A DNA stretch of 45,474 nt from Candidatus Scalindua sp. SCAELEC01 (GTDB lineage: Bacteria > Planctomycetota > Brocadiia > Brocadiales > Scalinduaceae): NCBI GenBank assembly GCA_004282745.1, contig SHMT01000036.1, forward strand, positions 1-45,474. The letters run 5' to 3'. Below the pieces are notes generated by a model that searched no databases, had not been told where the DNA came from, and saw nothing but the letters and a program-made list of their open reading frames with translations. Positions 32,972 through 45,164 of the stretch are shown here, piece after piece; the first letter of the stretch is position 1, and the number at the start of each line of letters is the position of its first letter. Made by a program: the position numbers and the translations under genes.

Positions 32972-33754
32972 ATGGAAATTGCACTCTATCAGATTGATGC
33001 CTTTGCATCTGAAGTTTTTAAAGGGAATCCGGCAGCTGTTTGTCCTCTAGAGGGTTGGTTGCCGGATTCCCTTCTTCAAAAAATCGCTGCGGAGAATAAT
33101 CTTTCGGAAACGGCATTTTATGTACCTACAGCTTCCGGGTTTCATCTACGCTGGTTTGCGCCAACTTCAGAAGTAGATTTGTGTGGTCATGCAACGTTGG
33201 CAACTGCATTTGTTATCTTTCATATTGTTGGATATGAACTCCCTGCTATCCGGTTCCAGACAAGGAGTGGAGAGCTGGTAGTGGAGAGAGATGGAGAGTC
33301 CATTATTATGGATTTTCCCACTCGTCCGGTAAAGGACTGCTCACTACCGGGAGACTTGAGTGCTGGTCTCAGGAGAGAACCAATTCATGTGTTCTCTTCC
33401 GATGATTATATTGCGGTATTTGACAATGAAGATGATATCGTTTCTCTCGATCCCGATTATGAAATGTTGCGTAAGCTTGATCTACGGGGCGTTGTCGTAA
33501 CGTCACGGGGAGAGAGTGCCGATTTCGTCAGCCGTTTCTTTGCCCCTAAGTTAGGGGTAAACGAAGATCCGGTTACCGGATCTTCTCACTGCGAACTTGT
33601 ACCTTACTGGGCAGACAGGTTACGTAAGACGAAGCTGAGGGCGAAGCAGCTCTCTAAAAGGGGAGGGGAGATAGGTTGTGAATTAAGGGGCAACCGTGTG
33701 CTCCTCTCAGGGAGGGCGGTTAAGTATATGGAGGGACGCATAACTTGTGGTTGA
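32972..33754 (+). CDS. PhzF-family isomerase/epimerase-like protein
   Basis: A 260-residue protein of the PhzF/DapF-like fold. Typical phrases are QIDAFASEVFKGNPAAVC at the start, NNLSETAFYV with the catalytic Glu, FAPTSEVDLCGHATLATA and NEDPVTGSSHCELVPYW. Its substrate is unknown. I chose ATG 32972, since the open frame upstream lies inside R1 copy 5. There is no clear Shine-Dalgarno sequence. The C-terminus ends MEGRITCG, and the last codons, including TGA, fall in the left edge of R1 copy 6, so the repeat appears to have replaced the original gene end. Confidence 0.87.
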   Translation: MEIALYQIDAFASEVFKGNPAAVCPLEGWLPDSLLQKIAAENNLSETAFYVPTASGFHLRWFAPTSEVDLCGHATLATAFVIFHIVGYELPAIRFQTRSGELVVERDGESIIMDFPTRPVKDCSLPGDLSAGLRREPIHVFSSDDYIAVFDNEDDIVSLDPDYEMLRKLDLRGVVVTSRGESADFVSRFFAPKLGVNEDPVTGSSHCELVPYWADRLRKTKLRAKQLSKRGGEIGCELRGNRVLLSGRAVKYMEGRITCG

Positions 33755-33874
33755 ACGTAATCTACCCATCTACTGCGTTGCTGTAATAATTTAGTAATCC
33801 TCACGTACTTGAGTACGCTCCGGTTACAAAATTATTACGCGCCTTGTATATGGGCAGTTTAAGTTCAACCACTA
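33746..33874. repeat. R1 palindromic repeat, copy 6 (129 bp)
   Basis: It starts TTGTGGTTGAACGTAATC and ends TTTAAGTTCAACCACTA. It takes in the last codons of the PhzF gene. The core CGTACTTGAGTACGCTCCGG is conserved. Confidence 0.85.
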
Positions 33875-33967
33875 AATAAAGTCTCTTAACAAAATATTTT
33901 GACAAATCCCTGTTTTCAATTTACTGGAATTTGTTTAGGGAAAATTCTTAGAAAAAAACAGTGAAAA

Positions 33968-33998
33968 CCGTTTAGCCTGCTTGAACAGTTTAAACGGT
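33968..33998. repeat. Upstream 9-bp units with hairpin before the four-helix-bundle gene
   Basis: Three units GTTTAGCCT, GCTTGAACA and GTTTAAACG (33970-33996) match the 9-bp unit of the array downstream of the gene. ACCGTTTA (33968-33975) and TAAACGGT (33991-33998) form a perfect 8-bp stem. The gene's ribosome-binding site starts 14 bases later. Confidence 0.7.
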
Positions 33999-34023
33999 AT
34001 CGTACTATACTGGAGGTAATGTA

Positions 34024-34470
34024 ATGGCGGCAAAGTATTTTGAAGATTTGGAGATCTGGATACTTTCACGGGAATTGACGAACAAAATCTATTCGGTAAG
34101 TAATGACGGCAGATTCGCGAAGGATTACGGACTCCGTGATCAGATAAGAAGGGCAGCTGTTTCGATTATGTCGAACATTGCGGAAGGTTATGAAAGAGGT
34201 GGTAATCAGGAATTTATACAGTTTCTGTCAATAGCCAAAGCGTCATGCGGTGAAGTTCGATCACAATTATATCTTGCAATGGATCAGTGCTACATTAAGA
34301 AAGCCGAATGTGAACAAGTAATAGATACCTTTAAGAAACTCTCCATCATGATTAACAACTTCATCGAATACCTCAAAGGCAGTGGATACAAAGGGACAAA
34401 ATATAAGATGCCGAAACAGAAAAGCACAAAAGAAAAACTGGAAGAGATAATAAAAAAGATTAATGCTTAA
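34024..34470 (+). CDS. Four-helix-bundle protein (23S rRNA intervening-sequence protein family)
   Basis: A 148-residue, helix-rich protein starting [19 protein letters not shown], with [20 protein letters not shown] and [20 protein letters not shown], the signature of the S23/IVP four-helix-bundle family (TIGR02436). Members occur inside 23S rRNA intervening sequences, in diversity-generating retroelements as Avd relatives, and as free-standing genes of unknown role. This copy stands free: no rRNA or reverse transcriptase is present. The C-terminal 25 residues are basic. TGGAGG lies 8 bases before the ATG. The same 9-bp unit brackets the gene on both sides, and the stop codon is inside the first downstream unit. 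Confidence 0.88.
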
Positions 34471-34608
34471 ACCTCTTAAACTGTTTAAACTGTTTTAACA
34501 GTTTGAACCGCTTAAACCGCTTAAACCGCTTAAACCGCTTAAACCGCTTAAACCGCTTAAACCACTTGAACTGTTTGAACCGCTTAAACTGTTTGAACTG
34601 TTTAACTG
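34465..34608. repeat. Tandem array of sixteen 9-bp units
   Basis: The stretch divides exactly into 16 units of 9 bases with consensus GYTTRAACY. Units 6-11 are identical GCTTAAACC; the others differ mainly at positions 2, 5 and 9. The first unit contains the TAA stop of the four-helix-bundle gene. Each unit junction (AAACTGTTT or AAACCGCTT) is near-palindromic. Read in reverse it would translate to a low-complexity KRF repeat, which is an artefact. Confidence 0.9.
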
Positions 34609-34841: not shown

Positions 34842-35126
34842 GTGACGACAATAGATATAGTAGCAAAGGAACTTCACATGAGGCCAAATGAACTCTTACA
34901 TGAAAGTTTAAGAACTTATCTGGAGAGGAGACTCGCAAAGGTTGAAGCCGAGATCTTTGCCCTGGCGAAAAAATATGGAGTTAAAGATGTATTTGAACTT
35001 GATACAAAGGTTAAAGATGGCTTGATCAAAGAAGAAAATGCCCATGAAGACTACTTTAACCTGGACAACCTGGAGGCAGATAGAGATAAGATAAAGAAAC
35101 TCTTAGAGGAGTTTCGATGTCAATAA
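34842..35126 (+). CDS. Antitoxin-like protein of a TumE-type pair
   Basis: A 94-residue, highly charged helical protein. It begins with a short helix-turn-helix-like piece (IVAKELHMRPNELLHESLRT) and continues with coiled-coil (RRLAKVEAEIFALAKKYG) and an acidic tail, the shape of many antitoxins. The start is GTG, with GGAG 9 bases upstream. The toxin-like gene starts inside its last codons (10-base overlap). The family is not recognised with certainty, and the antitoxin call rests on the pairing. It is the first gene of the cas transcription unit. Confidence 0.6.
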   Translation: MTTIDIVAKELHMRPNELLHESLRTYLERRLAKVEAEIFALAKKYGVKDVFELDTKVKDGLIKEENAHEDYFNLDNLEADRDKIKKLLEEFRCQ

Positions 35127-35470
35127 TTGATGATCTGAAAAGAATAGCTGAAGTAGAATATGCTGATATTGTAAAAGAAACTTTATTTATTGGATACAAG
35201 CTTAGAATTATTCTTGTTGATAACAGCTTCATAAACGTGCATTTATCACAAAGAATTCCCGATAAATTCAGCTTTCATTGGGAGTGCATAAGTAGTTTAG
35301 GAATGCTTTATCGGTATGACAATTTTCCAGACAAAAATTGGCAATCTGTACCAACCTATCCTCACCATTTTCATGATGACTCACAAGACGTAGTTAAATC
35401 TTCTCCTTTTCCGTTGAATTCTATTGATGGCTTCAGAGCATTTATGGAATTTGTAAAGAAAAAGATATGA
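35117..35470 (+). CDS. TumE-like (DUF6516) toxin, coupled to cas6
   Basis: A 117-residue protein with the TumE/DUF6516 pattern: a beta-rich part with YKLRIILVDNSFINVHLSQ, then FSFHWE and a His-rich YPHHFHDDSQDVVKSSPFPL segment. TumE-type toxins are thought to act on RNA. TTAGAGGAG lies just before its ATG, inside the upstream gene. Its TGA overlaps the cas6 ATG (ATGA), so toxin and cas6 are translationally coupled. The function in this setting is unknown; it could be a stabiliser of the CRISPR locus. Confidence 0.7.
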   Translation: MSIIDDLKRIAEVEYADIVKETLFIGYKLRIILVDNSFINVHLSQRIPDKFSFHWECISSLGMLYRYDNFPDKNWQSVPTYPHHFHDDSQDVVKSSPFPLNSIDGFRAFMEFVKKKI

Positions 35471-36231
35471 GAGTAAAAATATCACTTATTTCCGATAAAG
35501 CAGTTGTCTTACCAAAAAAGTTTAACCATATAACTCAGGCAGTAATTTATCAGCTTATTGACAAAATATCTGCCAAGTGGCTGCATGATGGCGGCTTTAA
35601 GATAGAGAAACGCTCATTTAAACTCTTTACCTTTTCTTCAATTATTGAAAAAGGCAAATATCACCAACAAAAGGAAATGTTTACCTTCCCTCACGCAGTC
35701 AGTTTTTACGTTTCGTCCCCTGTTGCCTGGATACTTGAACAGGTTGCGAAGAATACGGCATTTAGCGAAAAGTTAATGTTTGGGCAGAACGAAATGAGTA
35801 TTTCGTCAGTTGAAATCATAAAGGACGATGATATTACAGGAAACAAGATAAGGATTAACGCCTTAACTCCCATAGAGACACATTCCACATTGCTGAAAGG
35901 GGACGGCAGTAAAAAGACCTACTACTACTCTCCAACTGAATCTGAGTACAGCGAATTAATAAACGAAAATCTCAGAAAGAAATGGAAAGCATATTACAAA
36001 GAAAGTTGTCCATACAATATTAAAATCAAACCAGTACAAATGAAATATTGCAGGGAAAGGATAAGGTCTTTTAAAGGTACAGTCATAAAGGGATGGACAG
36101 GCCATTTCTGGCTGGAAGGTGAACCGGAGTTCCTGCAGTTTGCACTTGCGGCTGGATTGGGATCGAGAAACAGTGCAGGGTTTGGGTTTATTGAGATGGT
36201 TGGGAAAAGAAGGAGTACAAAAGAATGCTGA
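35467..36231 (+). CDS. cas6: CRISPR-associated endoribonuclease Cas6
   Basis: A 254-residue RAMP-fold protein that cuts pre-crRNA in the repeat. The N-terminal part has FNHITQAVIYQLI, where the His may be catalytic, and the C-terminus has the Gly-rich loop GLGSRNSAGFG of Cas6. Length is usual. The start ATG overlaps the stop of the upstream toxin. The stop overlaps the cas8b start by 7 bases. It is the first cas gene of the type I-B set. Confidence 0.92.
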   Translation: MRVKISLISDKAVVLPKKFNHITQAVIYQLIDKISAKWLHDGGFKIEKRSFKLFTFSSIIEKGKYHQQKEMFTFPHAVSFYVSSPVAWILEQVAKNTAFSEKLMFGQNEMSISSVEIIKDDDITGNKIRINALTPIETHSTLLKGDGSKKTYYYSPTESEYSELINENLRKKWKAYYKESCPYNIKIKPVQMKYCRERIRSFKGTVIKGWTGHFWLEGEPEFLQFALAAGLGSRNSAGFGFIEMVGKRRSTKEC

Positions 36232-38198
36232 AAGAGATTGTTGAGTTTTCTACGAAATTAGAGGAAGCTGGGATCTATGATCTGGTTAACGAAGGAGAAA
36301 GGAAACTAGATAAACCTGTTATGGTTATTCCGGTGAGCGATGATCTAAATGAAATTATAACTGATGATATATATTTTGTTTTTAAGGATATAAAAGAAGA
36401 GGTGGAAAACGGGACTACTGTAAAAAAGCATAATGTCATTTTGGAGGGGAAGAAAGGAAACGAGATTAAATGGGAAATTAAAAATAGTGAAGAAAACCCC
36501 TCAATTTTTAAGAAATGTTCTGATGAAAACGTAGAATGGCAGAATATACTAAAGTCATTATCTCTTTACACAAAAAAACCGTCAAATGATTCAAAAGGAA
36601 ATAAAAGTATTGGAAGTAATAAAGGCACAAATTCATATAGTCTGCTCATTTTTGAAGGCAAGTTTGACAGTGGCACATTAAGCGCCGGAAAATTTAAAGG
36701 AGATATTTTTAACTGCAAGGAGGGTTTTAAGCAAAAACTTACCAACACCTATAAAGAAACAAATATAAAAAAAGGATTACCTGATAATTTGGACCAAGAG
36801 ATGCAGCAAAAATACTTGAGATTATTTGAATCAGTAAGTATCAACGAGAATATTTCTAAAATTTCATACAACGTGGCTTGGTTAAAGATAATAATGTCTT
36901 ATTATGACGACAAAAAGAAAGGATGGAAATTTCCTGGTAATTCAATGTTTGTGGTTTTTAAACTTCCGGAAAGTTTTTATGGAAATTATAAAGATTGGTA
37001 TGAAAGATATCTTTCAAGAAAAATATTTGCAGAAGATAAACCTGAAAGGTATTTAAACGGAAAATGTTTTATTTGCAATAGAGAGCAGGTAAATATTTAT
37101 GTCCCGAATGCGTTCCATAATTTTGACTCAGGAGGGCTAAAGCCATTCTTGAAACACCTTAATAGATTCATTGATTACAACATTGAGGTATGTGAAACTT
37201 GTTCACTTGATATTTATAAATTTCAAGAATATTTTTTAAATAAGCTTGGAGTTACATTATTCCCTCTATTTGTCAATGCAAAGTACAAAGAATATGTTGT
37301 TAACCTTTTTGAAAATGAAGGCAAGCTTACAAAAAAAGGATTCAAAGAGATTGTTCAGGAAGTCTATAAAAATAGTTCGAACGAAGAATTGGATTTTTAT
37401 CTGATTATTTATAATCGCGGGGAACGCATACTCGCTTTTGACTATATTACCGGTTTTAAATTTAAAATGTATGGACAGAACATATTTGCCATTGAAAGTT
37501 TAATAAACAGATATTTTTTTGCATATAAGCTAGAAAAAAACTACTTCACTGAGGACGTAGATACCGGTTCACACCAATTGAATATTCTTATTTACAAATA
37601 CAGACAACAGCTTTTTGATTATTTTTATAGAGCAAAATATGCGGGACTGTCACAAAAGATTTTGGCTAATATGTACTTTGATTCTCTGAAAATGAGACTT
37701 AGAGAGTTTTTTGATAAAAAAAAGGATATTAAAAAAACTTATTACAACCTTAAAGATATGAGCGATGTCTATTTTGATTTAGACAATATATTCATATTCA
37801 GCAAAAAGGAGACAAAAATGGAAACCGTAGAAAGGATTAAAAAGGAGGAGAAGATTAAGGATAAAGAGAGTTTCGCCTATTATGCAGGACAAATTGCCTA
37901 CTATCTCTTAAACCAATCAAAGTCCGCTGAGAAAACTCATGCCATGATCGAACCTTTTATAAATATGAATAATTTTGGATTACTTGCGGAAAGAATTAAG
38001 GAACTGTTTAATTCATATAAACATGCCATTCCGCTTAATGCTAAAAGATTTAATGAGATGTTTTCTGAAATGTGGGGATTTCTTTATGATAACAAAGAAG
38101 AGAAATTCACCAGGGATTTGAAAACACTCTTTTATGCCGGTTATTTTAATAGTAACGAAAATATTTTTTATGCTTCGTCAAAGGAGGGAGAAAAGTGA
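36225..38198 (+). CDS. cas8b: Type I-B Cascade large subunit Cas8b (Csh1/TM1802 type)
   Basis: A 657-residue large subunit that recognises the PAM and holds the crRNA-target complex. Two Cys pairs, CFIC at about residues 281-284 and CETC at 323-326, form the zinc-binding site seen in the TM1802-type Cas8b. The sequence is Lys-, Asn- and Phe-rich, as usual in AT-rich hosts. The gene overlaps cas6 upstream and cas7 downstream (GTGA), and no frameshift is seen. Its C-terminal part (from about 560) is helical and may hold the small-subunit (Cas11) region or an internal start. Confidence 0.88.
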   Translation: MLKEIVEFSTKLEEAGIYDLVNEGERKLDKPVMVIPVSDDLNEIITDDIYFVFKDIKEEVENGTTVKKHNVILEGKKGNEIKWEIKNSEENPSIFKKCSDENVEWQNILKSLSLYTKKPSNDSKGNKSIGSNKGTNSYSLLIFEGKFDSGTLSAGKFKGDIFNCKEGFKQKLTNTYKETNIKKGLPDNLDQEMQQKYLRLFESVSINENISKISYNVAWLKIIMSYYDDKKKGWKFPGNSMFVVFKLPESFYGNYKDWYERYLSRKIFAEDKPERYLNGKCFICNREQVNIYVPNAFHNFDSGGLKPFLKHLNRFIDYNIEVCETCSLDIYKFQEYFLNKLGVTLFPLFVNAKYKEYVVNLFENEGKLTKKGFKEIVQEVYKNSSNEELDFYLIIYNRGERILAFDYITGFKFKMYGQNIFAIESLINRYFFAYKLEKNYFTEDVDTGSHQLNILIYKYRQQLFDYFYRAKYAGLSQKILANMYFDSLKMRLREFFDKKKDIKKTYYNLKDMSDVYFDLDNIFIFSKKETKMETVERIKKEEKIKDKESFAYYAGQIAYYLLNQSKSAEKTHAMIEPFINMNNFGLLAERIKELFNSYKHAIPLNAKRFNEMFSEMWGFLYDNKEEKFTRDLKTLFYAGYFNSNENIFYASSKEGEK

Positions 38199-39157
38199 AC
38201 GGAACTAAAGAAACAAAACAAGATGAAAGTGAATTCAGAAGCAGATGTTACGGAATTATCGTAATAAGGAGTGAAAACAGTAATTTTAATGCTGACTTTA
38301 CCGGTAATCCAAGAAGGTTGCCTGATGAAAATGGGACTATCTACGCAACTGACAAGGCTTTGAAGTATGCCATTAGAAAATACTGGGTAGATAACGGTGA
38401 GAATGTCTTTGTGTGGAAAACCTTTAGAGAGGATAAAGGAAAGTATCTACCATATACTCTTGAAGAAAGATACAACAACATGAAACAAAAACTAGAGAAA
38501 GAGACGCCTCTAGAAGTTTTCACGGAATGTATTGATACAAAACTGTTTGGGATTACCTTCGCAATGCAATCCGCTATAGAAGGAGAAAGCAAAAACATAT
38601 CTCTTACCGGCCCTGTTCAAATAAGCTATGGAGTAAACAAGTATGAAGAAAATATTATTTTCTCAAATGACATACTTTCTCCATACGCTAAAGATTCAGG
38701 AGACAAAAGTCCAACAATAGGAAATGAAAACAAGGCAAAGGAGATTTATTATGTGTATGATTTTGTAATAAACCCTCAAAACATCCTTAACCATTATGAA
38801 GATAATTCAGAAGTGCAGGAAAAGATGATGCTTAAGACCGGAGATATAGACCGCCTGAAAGATGCTCTTAAAAATGCCGTAACAAACCTGAACACCGCAT
38901 CAAAGGTTGGATCTGAAAACATTCTTACTCTGTTTATAACGATGAATGAAGGATCAAAAGTACAAATCCCTACTCTGAAAAGTCTTGTAAAGATAACAAA
39001 GAATAATGGGATTCCTACAATAGATCTTACTTCAGTCGTGAATACGCTTGATAATTATGGAGAAAAGAGAATGGAGTTGTATTACGATAATACTTTGATT
39101 AATGTGGACAGTTGTGACAAAATTGATAACAAGCATCAATCAAATAATAAGGATTAA
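38195..39157 (+). CDS. cas7: Cas7 (Csh2) backbone subunit of type I-B Cascade
   Basis: A 320-residue RAMP protein that forms the filament along the crRNA spacer. Diagnostic phrases are CYGIIVIRSENSNFNADFTG near the start, YATDKALKYAIRKYW, and LFGITFAMQ plus SLTGPVQISYG in the middle, all as in Csh2. The start is GTG, overlapping the cas8b stop as GTGA, with AAGGAGGGAG upstream. It is followed by a toxin-antitoxin pair and not directly by cas5, which departs from the usual cas8b-cas7-cas5 order. Confidence 0.93.
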   Translation: MNGTKETKQDESEFRSRCYGIIVIRSENSNFNADFTGNPRRLPDENGTIYATDKALKYAIRKYWVDNGENVFVWKTFREDKGKYLPYTLEERYNNMKQKLEKETPLEVFTECIDTKLFGITFAMQSAIEGESKNISLTGPVQISYGVNKYEENIIFSNDILSPYAKDSGDKSPTIGNENKAKEIYYVYDFVINPQNILNHYEDNSEVQEKMMLKTGDIDRLKDALKNAVTNLNTASKVGSENILTLFITMNEGSKVQIPTLKSLVKITKNNGIPTIDLTSVVNTLDNYGEKRMELYYDNTLINVDSCDKIDNKHQSNNKD

Positions 39158-39207
39158 TTATTGTACCAATTTATTTCATTAATAATTTTATATTGGAGGT
39201 AACTTTT

Positions 39208-39402
39208 ATGGCTATTACGGCAATACAGGGAGTTTGTCATGATGGTAAAATAGAACCATTGGAAAAAATTCCTTACAAAACGGATAAGAAGGTTATCATT
39301 ATCTTTCTGGATGACGCAGAAGATGGAATATGGGAAAACGCTGTAGCCGAAGATTTTATGAAAGGATATTCAGAAAAGGATGCCGCTTATGACAAACTAT
39401 GA
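39208..39402 (+). CDS. Antitoxin of a MazF/PemK-type module inside the cas operon
   Basis: A 64-residue protein beginning AITAIQGVCHDGKIEPLEKI. The pattern of a short beta-rich N-terminal part (GKIEPLEKIPYKTDKKVIII) and a C-terminal acidic helix fits small antitoxins of the DUF104/AF2212-like type. TGGAGG lies 10 bases before ATG 39208; the frame upstream is open but has no site. It overlaps the toxin gene by 14 bases. It starts 50 bases after cas7. Confidence 0.75.
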   Translation: MAITAIQGVCHDGKIEPLEKIPYKTDKKVIIIFLDDAEDGIWENAVAEDFMKGYSEKDAAYDKL

Positions 39403-39721
39403 TTTTGGCGATATATTGCTTGTGAAATTTCCCTATAGCGAAGGAAAAGGAGAAACTAAAAGGCCTGTGGTTGTTTTAGCACAGACAGATGTAAAGGATA
39501 TTGTTGTGGCAAAGGTGACCAGTATGGAACAAAGAGGAGAATATGATATAGCAATAGATGATTGGGAACATGTGGGCTTATTATATCCCTCCATTGTTAG
39601 AATGGATAAATTGGCGACTCTTTCAAAGGAGAGATTGACAAGAAAACTTGGAGCGCTGAATGATTCATATAAGCCCAAAATAATATATAAGATAAAACAG
39701 CTGTTTAAAATAGAGAATTAA
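39389..39721 (+). CDS. MazF/PemK-family toxin inside the cas operon
   Basis: A 110-residue SH3-like barrel protein of the MazF/PemK endoribonuclease family: DFGDILLVKFPYSEGKG, TKRPVVVLAQ and, near the end, MDKLATLSKERL. Such toxins cut mRNA when the labile antitoxin is gone. I chose ATG 39389, with AAAAGGA upstream, over the ATG three codons earlier. It ends 21 bases before cas5. Its place between cas7 and cas5 on the same strand means it is probably co-transcribed with the interference complex. Confidence 0.88.
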   Translation: MTNYDFGDILLVKFPYSEGKGETKRPVVVLAQTDVKDIVVAKVTSMEQRGEYDIAIDDWEHVGLLYPSIVRMDKLATLSKERLTRKLGALNDSYKPKIIYKIKQLFKIEN

Positions 39722-39742
39722 AACGAATACTGGAGAAAATCA

Positions 39743-40552
39743 ATGAACGTATTCTCTTTTGACATTGCGGGTGACATGGCTTTCTTCAAGAAAAATGATG
39801 CCAATGACATGGTGTATACAAGCTACAACTTTCTGCATAAACCGGTGATATTGGGTATTATCGGTGCTATTCTTGGAATTTCCGGTTATGCGAAATCAGG
39901 TGAAGATAAAAAGGAAAAGCGATATCCTGACTTTTACACAAATTTAAAAGATATAAAGATTGCCATATTCCCCCATTATGAGAAACCGTTGAAAAAAGTT
40001 ATTACGGGTTTTAATAATGCCTCTGGACTTGCATCAAGAAGCACAAAAAAACAAGGCGAGACCTGGCAGATAAGAGAGCAAATTCTTGTAGGAGAACCTG
40101 AAATCAGGTATACGGTATTTGTTCTTGATAATAACTCAATTCAGGATGGCTTAATTAGTAATCTGAAGCACTTATTAGAAAACAGAGAATCGGAATATCC
40201 TCTCTATTTCGGGAAAAATGAGTTTTTCGCCTATCATGAGAATTATCAGGAATATGAAGCTATGCCATTGACGTGTGCCGAAACATCTGTCTGTAGTTTA
40301 GTCAAAGCCGGTAATGAAAGTACGAATATTTTCCGTGAAGCTTCTTTTGAAGATTTTGACCCATTTGAAAAATCATCAAATGAAGGTTATACCTTATATG
40401 AGCATCTGCCATACGATTTTGACGAAAGGGGGTTTTATAAAAAGGATATGTTCGTTCTGACTCAACGGGAAATAATAATAAAAGATAAAACAGGCTTTTA
40501 TACACTTGTGACTAAAAGCGGAGGAGAACCGTTCAATGTTCAGTTTATTTAA
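39743..40552 (+). CDS. cas5: Cas5 (type I-B, Cas5h-like)
   Basis: A 269-residue RAMP protein that caps the 5' handle of the crRNA. It opens NVFSFDIAGDMAFFKKNDAN and has SYNFLHKPVILGIIGAILG, the usual Cas5 segment binding the crRNA handle, with RSTKKQGETWQIREQIL further on. GGAG precedes the ATG. The last 17 bases overlap the cas3 start, so translation is coupled. No lesion is seen. Confidence 0.9.
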   Translation: MNVFSFDIAGDMAFFKKNDANDMVYTSYNFLHKPVILGIIGAILGISGYAKSGEDKKEKRYPDFYTNLKDIKIAIFPHYEKPLKKVITGFNNASGLASRSTKKQGETWQIREQILVGEPEIRYTVFVLDNNSIQDGLISNLKHLLENRESEYPLYFGKNEFFAYHENYQEYEAMPLTCAETSVCSLVKAGNESTNIFREASFEDFDPFEKSSNEGYTLYEHLPYDFDERGFYKKDMFVLTQREIIIKDKTGFYTLVTKSGGEPFNVQFI

Positions 40553-45001: not shown

Positions 45002-45164
45002 GTTTTCATTTTACCTATGAGGAATTGAAACCGGCATGGCAGTAAAGATTGGGCAGGAGGTGTACTTGTTTTCATTTTACCTATGAGGAATTGAAACTTA
45101 GCAGATATACGTACCCATTCTTTAAACCTATCCAGTTTTCATTTTACCTATGAGGAATTGAAAC
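45002..45164 (+). CRISPR. CRISPR array, three 30-nt repeats and two spacers
   Basis: Repeats at 45002-45031, 45068-45097 and 45135-45164 are identical; each starts GTTTTCATTTTACC and ends TGAGGAATTGAAAC, the usual type I-B pattern with a GAAAC end. Spacers are 36 nt (45032-45067) and 37 nt (45098-45134). Transcription is expected on the plus strand, giving the repeat end as an 8-nt 5' handle ATTGAAAC. No match of either spacer to this window was seen. Confidence 0.97.

Follow-up and report, generated by a model that had tools for sequence, protein, structure and literature searches.

The segment at 33967-34608 of the window, by which we mean the whole 45,474-nucleotide contig that was analyzed, is probably a free-standing mobile element of the same class as the intervening sequences (IVS) of 23S rRNA, in which an S23 gene lies between short-repeat arms owned by the element. 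Such an element would be selfish, its S23 protein would bind the element's own arms, and host or other machinery would move it. The element is composed of the following features.

33967..34608, + strand: whole element, comprising upstream arm, S23 gene and downstream arm (DNA homology with copies elsewhere)
33967..33998, unstranded: upstream arm, an 8-bp inverted repeat (hairpin) that encloses three 9-bp units (sequence; RNA fold)
34012..34016, + strand: ribosome-binding site GGAGG (sequence)
34024..34470, + strand: S23/IVP four-helix-bundle gene, 148 aa (PF05635, E=3e-35; 2GSC, E=2e-13; dN/dS)
34465..34608, unstranded: downstream arm of sixteen 9-bp steps, the first of which contains the stop codon (TRF; sequence)

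The gene product matches PF05635 (S23 / 23S_rRNA_IVP) over the entire profile (1-106 of 106) with 121 bits, against a cut-off of 33.8 (E=3e-35). Among solved relatives, 2GSC is matched by sequence (E=2e-13) and 2RLD weakly, and both entries contain five chains. Comparison with relatives gives dN/dS values of 0.055-0.078, so the S23 protein is maintained by purifying selection. S23 is the sole ORF of the element, which encodes no transposase, nuclease or reverse transcriptase.

Both repeat arrays of the original prediction are borne out. The downstream arm consists of sixteen 9-bp units running from the stop codon, with the TAA (34468-34470) inside unit 1; twelve of the sixteen units, as read from the sequence, conform exactly to GYTTRAACY, three deviate slightly (TCTTAAACT, GTTTTAACA and ACTTGAACT), and the sixteenth is broken (GTTTAACTG). 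The three upstream units, GTTTAGCCT-GCTTGAACA-GTTTAAACG (33970-33996), precede the GGAGG ribosome-binding site and are enclosed by a perfect 8-bp inverted repeat, ACCGTTTA...TAAACGGT (33967-33974 and 33991-33998), which RNA folding turns into a 9-bp stem with an inner 3 bp. The downstream arm is the sole tandem array found in the 45-kb window (TRF scores 152-159), and all eight occurrences of the two-unit word in the 4.59-Mb genome fall within it, compared with no matches in the same genome for a reversed-control word. The confinement of the word to a single array argues that the array is not due to chance. Its 9-bp head-to-tail units rule out a CRISPR; the real CRISPR-DR2 repeats are located at 45002-45164.

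Gene and arms move together. Sixteen relatives were fetched (Scalindua, Brocadia, Deltaproteobacteria, Nitrospirae and one betaproteobacterium), and GTTYAAACG-like units are found beside orthologues of about 57% protein identity and above, in differing genomic surroundings; Scalindua, Brocadia and deltaproteobacterial orthologues at other sites retain the same 9-mer arms. BLASTN alignments of the window copy with orthologues elsewhere extend 37-59 nt beyond the gene on the start-codon side and 70-101 nt on the stop-codon side, so that both edges of the homology fall inside the arms or at their borders. Two copies of one genome (loci L126 and L214) are 88% identical, and their flanks match for only 51 nt on each side. 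Since the homology between sites stops at the arms, the gene plus its arms is the unit that moved. The predicted union of gene and array, with a role in mobility or recognition, thus gains strong support, both from arms that travel with the gene and from the finding that most sampled S23 genes are armed.

S23 matches are present in 57 of the 62 genomes of this order, often several per genome, and many copies with differing words coexist in single genomes. The genome under study holds about ten more S23 genes or fragments. The window 9-mer is absent from the flanks of these copies, several of which are bracketed by different short repeats, mirrored in most cases (AGAATTC/AGAAGTC heptads, AAGTGACTA 9-mers, TTTAGGA heptads); this variety within one genome suggests a general rule with lineage-specific words. 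We note that a dispersed hairpin element of roughly 120 bp, with GTGGTTGAACG...CGTTCAACCAC-type ends, lies just upstream of the window element (33752-33875), and similar copies are located beside other S23 genes of the genome (L006, L008).

For a family-wide survey of flanks, S23 loci were taken from genome samples of Planctomycetota and Pseudomonadota, from genomes of other relatives including Nitrospirae, and from plasmids of Cyanobacteriota and Bacteroidota, which yielded 208 loci after removal of near-duplicates, unevenly sampled among phyla and with start codons and neighboring ORFs assigned by rule. For each gene, the 150-nt upstream flank was aligned to the reverse-complemented 150-nt downstream flank. 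The inverted score of a locus with itself has a median of 32, compared with 15 for cross-locus pairs, and exceeds the 95th percentile of the cross pairs in 164/208 loci and the 99th in 114/208; about 20% of the sampled loci do not rise above the 95th percentile. The control, 217 neighboring ORFs from the same loci, has a median of 16 (p=1e-43 versus S23), and a score above 30 is reached by 55% of S23 loci versus 0.9% of neighboring ORFs. Direct matches between flanks are rarer (44/208 above the 99th percentile), and the window clade is among them.

Where the two flanks of one locus share a short-period word, it is usually inverted, usually 7 bp long, and lineage-specific. Self-identity within the arms peaks at lags of 7, 14 and 21 (0.59, 0.55 and 0.52, compared with a value of about 0.27 for most other lags), which makes heptads the standard form, with 8- and 9-mers as variants. 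The arms, with periods of 7, 8 or 9, have a median length of about 32 nt (four to five heptads), and 99 of 116 loci have a G-rich 5′ arm. The arm length might conceivably be related to a pentameric S23 protein, in the manner of TRAP. The less alike two S23 proteins are, the less alike are the words at their sites, and below about 55% protein identity almost no word similarity is left, a relationship expected from recognition and equally from joint inheritance. The expectation that similar 9-mers would accompany other S23 genes holds in part: arms are general, but the GTTTAAAC-type word occurs only in the clade of about 57% identity and above, and the other clades checked have arms of their own but built of other words, mostly 7-mers. 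The window 9-mer, confined to one S23 clade, is therefore rejected as a family-wide signature.

The array also occurs without the gene, contrary to the idea that it is exclusive to the S23 neighborhood; such occurrence far from any S23 gene was one of the two outcomes that the original prediction named as refuting it. Two-unit 9-mers are present in 27 of the 98 genomes searched, and at 26 of 29 motif loci from other genomes there is no S23 within about 1.5 kb. Thus, the 9-mer word alone does not imply S23, and the solo arrays count against an exclusive linkage of the two; they are plausibly remnants or non-autonomous derivatives of the element. Some solo arrays (L021, L022, L023, L024 and L027, at about 1443-1587, and L048, at 1421-1657) are located within riboswitch aptamers, c-di-GMP-I in five genomes and cobalamin in one, and the array at L048 is a near-perfect palindrome.

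Besides operons, S23 elements invade protein genes without breaking the host frame, and for one such gene relatives have empty sites. The protein genes that harbor them are of four kinds, three DNA methyltransferases and one DNA polymerase. In six species the element occupies one methyltransferase gene between IGQPDV and EVLGFDYY, where relatives without S23 have a linker of 63-75 nt or other small inserts, and where arms are absent from the empty sites. The host frame is stop-free through 474-498 nt in 6/6 occupied sites, S23 being read in another frame. Overall, the +2 frame is stop-free in only 5 of 117 S23 genes (median 8 stops), and all five are in methyltransferase genes: three at the site just described, of which L067 is now frameshifted downstream, while L059 lies in a second methyltransferase and L128 in an Eco57I-type enzyme. 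L253, in a DNA polymerase III alpha-type gene, is a further in-gene case; frames that span the element spuriously, in GC-rich loci such as L233, were left out. The stop-free host frame suggests that the host proteins probably contain a long insert, its translation being predicted from the reading frame, and that the element is open in two frames. RNA excision or ribosome bypass is disfavored by the same stop-free frame across the whole element. No target-site duplication was identified; the host linker of the methyltransferase site varies among empty sites, so that the ends cannot be placed to the base.

At four other loci (L191, L192, L193 and L195) the methyltransferase linker holds other small in-frame repeats (CCCCCTCTGGAGGGGGCAAGGGG; CATTGCGAGTGGAACGAAGCAATCT). 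With S23 in some species and other repeats in relatives, the linker is a hot spot for small insertions. Two related genomes (L284, L285) encode a larger protein that ends in a fused S23 domain; repeat arms are apparently lacking there, and the fusion may represent domestication.

The link to rRNA is provided by L300, whose S23 gene is embedded in a 23S rRNA (matched by Rfam RF02541 across 3 kb). Its flanks, TCAGGAATCAGAGTTCAGGAATTAGGTATCAGA ahead of the ATG and TGATCTGATCCCTGATCCCTGACCTCTGATTCCTGA from the stop codon on, form mirrored arms of heptads, the stop codon falling in the first unit of the 3′ arm, and this is the layout of the free-standing copies. The IVS of Coxiella likewise has tandem GACAGAT heptamers before the S23 ORF, in strain-variable number (PMC4990558). 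Compared with L300, the window element shares an S23 ORF and short-repeat arms on both sides, and the same arrangement of an S23 ORF between terminal repeats characterizes the 23S rRNA IVS of, for example, Coxiella burnetii, Leptospira and Xanthomonas. Unlike these, the window copy has a near-palindromic 9-bp unit and lies between protein genes rather than in rRNA; no rRNA family match was found in the window. In the open-access literature, we found no paper on free-standing S23 genes with flanking repeats, and an earlier description elsewhere is possible.

The genes around the element include a CRISPR-cas operon (35467-40552), in which TumE and PemK/MazF toxin-antitoxin-type genes (34842-35470 and 39380-39721) are interspersed. 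S23 is often found beside or inside cas operons (also at L051, L081, L178, L181 and L183), in contexts that comprise cas6, the interval between cas1 and cas2, cas6/cas4, and cmr2/cmr3. Cas proteins make up at least 11 of the 140 neighboring proteins scanned, a sample that is not independent.

The arms could instead function in RNA, as those of rRNA IVS do, by pairing across the S23 ORF so that an RNase III-like cut would process or insulate the operon mRNA, a reading that we regard as unlikely. The terminal stem of rRNA IVS is indeed cut by RNase III (PMC4990558), and the arms are usually mirrored, whereas those of the window clade are mainly direct copies. Mismatches between arms that are compatible with G-U pairing number 130, versus 136 A-C mismatches, and the window element folds no better than its shuffles (z 0.25); with no G-U excess and no better fold, selection for RNA pairing between the arms is unsupported. 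The location of solo arrays in riboswitch loops would suit a function in RNA. So would the orientation of S23, which is co-directional by 72 to 7 where both neighbors share a strand, but ordinary operons are also usually co-directional, and the excess is consistent with reliance on host transcription as well as with normal operon organization.

The same co-direction, together with purifying selection and the frequent proximity of cas genes, would also be consistent with S23 as a host gene that controls its own expression via repeated operators or mRNA-binding sites next to it, its movement being incidental. We consider this improbable in view of the insertions within methyltransferase and polymerase genes and 23S rRNA, the position of arms on both sides of the gene, even after the stop codon, and the many copies with differing words per genome. 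Chance proximity of the gene to a microsatellite or intergenic repeat of the ordinary kind is hardly credible: the same word is found alone elsewhere in relatives, but the association spans five phyla against both the neighboring-gene and the cross-locus controls, which reject such a coincidence, one word lies on both sides of the gene, and the arms moved with it.

For the mobile element of the IVS class that we favor, the S23 protein may bind the units that make up its own arms, and this binding would support transfer or maintenance of a selfish element. Such binding is suggested by the five-chain relatives (2GSC, 2RLD) and by the conserved pairing of word and clade, the co-inheritance of word and protein being no proof of binding. 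Strand cutting or copying would be left to host or other machinery, because the element has no transposase, nuclease or reverse transcriptase of its own. In the window clade, each arm would fold into its own hairpins rather than into one stem with the other arm, because the 9-mer unit has a near-palindromic core. Several observations count against the IVS-type reading: the window arms, with local hairpins in each, match better in direct than in inverted orientation (scores of 32 and 26), relatives commonly have arrays of the same word that lack S23, neither a cutting or copying enzyme for the element nor a target duplication was identified, and about 20% of the loci stay below the threshold.

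Other known systems share parts of this arrangement. The accessory protein bAvd of diversity-generating retroelements is a nucleic-acid-acting pentamer with an S23-type fold, and of the S23-family structures considered alongside it, 2GSC matches the window protein by sequence and 2RLD weakly. In contrast to these retroelements, the window element has no reverse transcriptase and no template or variable repeats, and none of the neighboring genes scanned encodes a reverse transcriptase. The STRR heptanucleotides and small dispersed repeats of cyanobacteria are short-period arrays tolerated even in functional RNAs; the cyanobacterial S23 genes sampled have heptad arms, and STRR are not tied to S23 in the open-access papers found. 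Rickettsia palindromic elements are selfish repeats tolerated as in-frame inserts in protein genes, whereas an S23 element brings along a gene of its own, read in a second frame.

In sum, the survey suggests that most of the free-standing S23 genes tested in five phyla, and the 23S rRNA case, are one kind of minimal selfish element. More tentatively, free-standing S23 genes across bacteria may form a single minimal mobile class, comprising a pentamer-forming protein and two iso-repeat arms, which invades operons, structured RNAs and genes (with a second frame kept stop-free) and whose arms evolve in concert under recognition by their own protein. To our knowledge, free-standing S23 genes have no known role; grouping them with rRNA IVS gives them a testable one, that of an element-encoded binder of its own terminal repeats. 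The one-class view would help explain why IVS carry an S23 ORF, how some short-period arrays in bacterial genomes originated, and how an element of roughly 450 bp can reside in a methyltransferase or polymerase gene with the frame unbroken.
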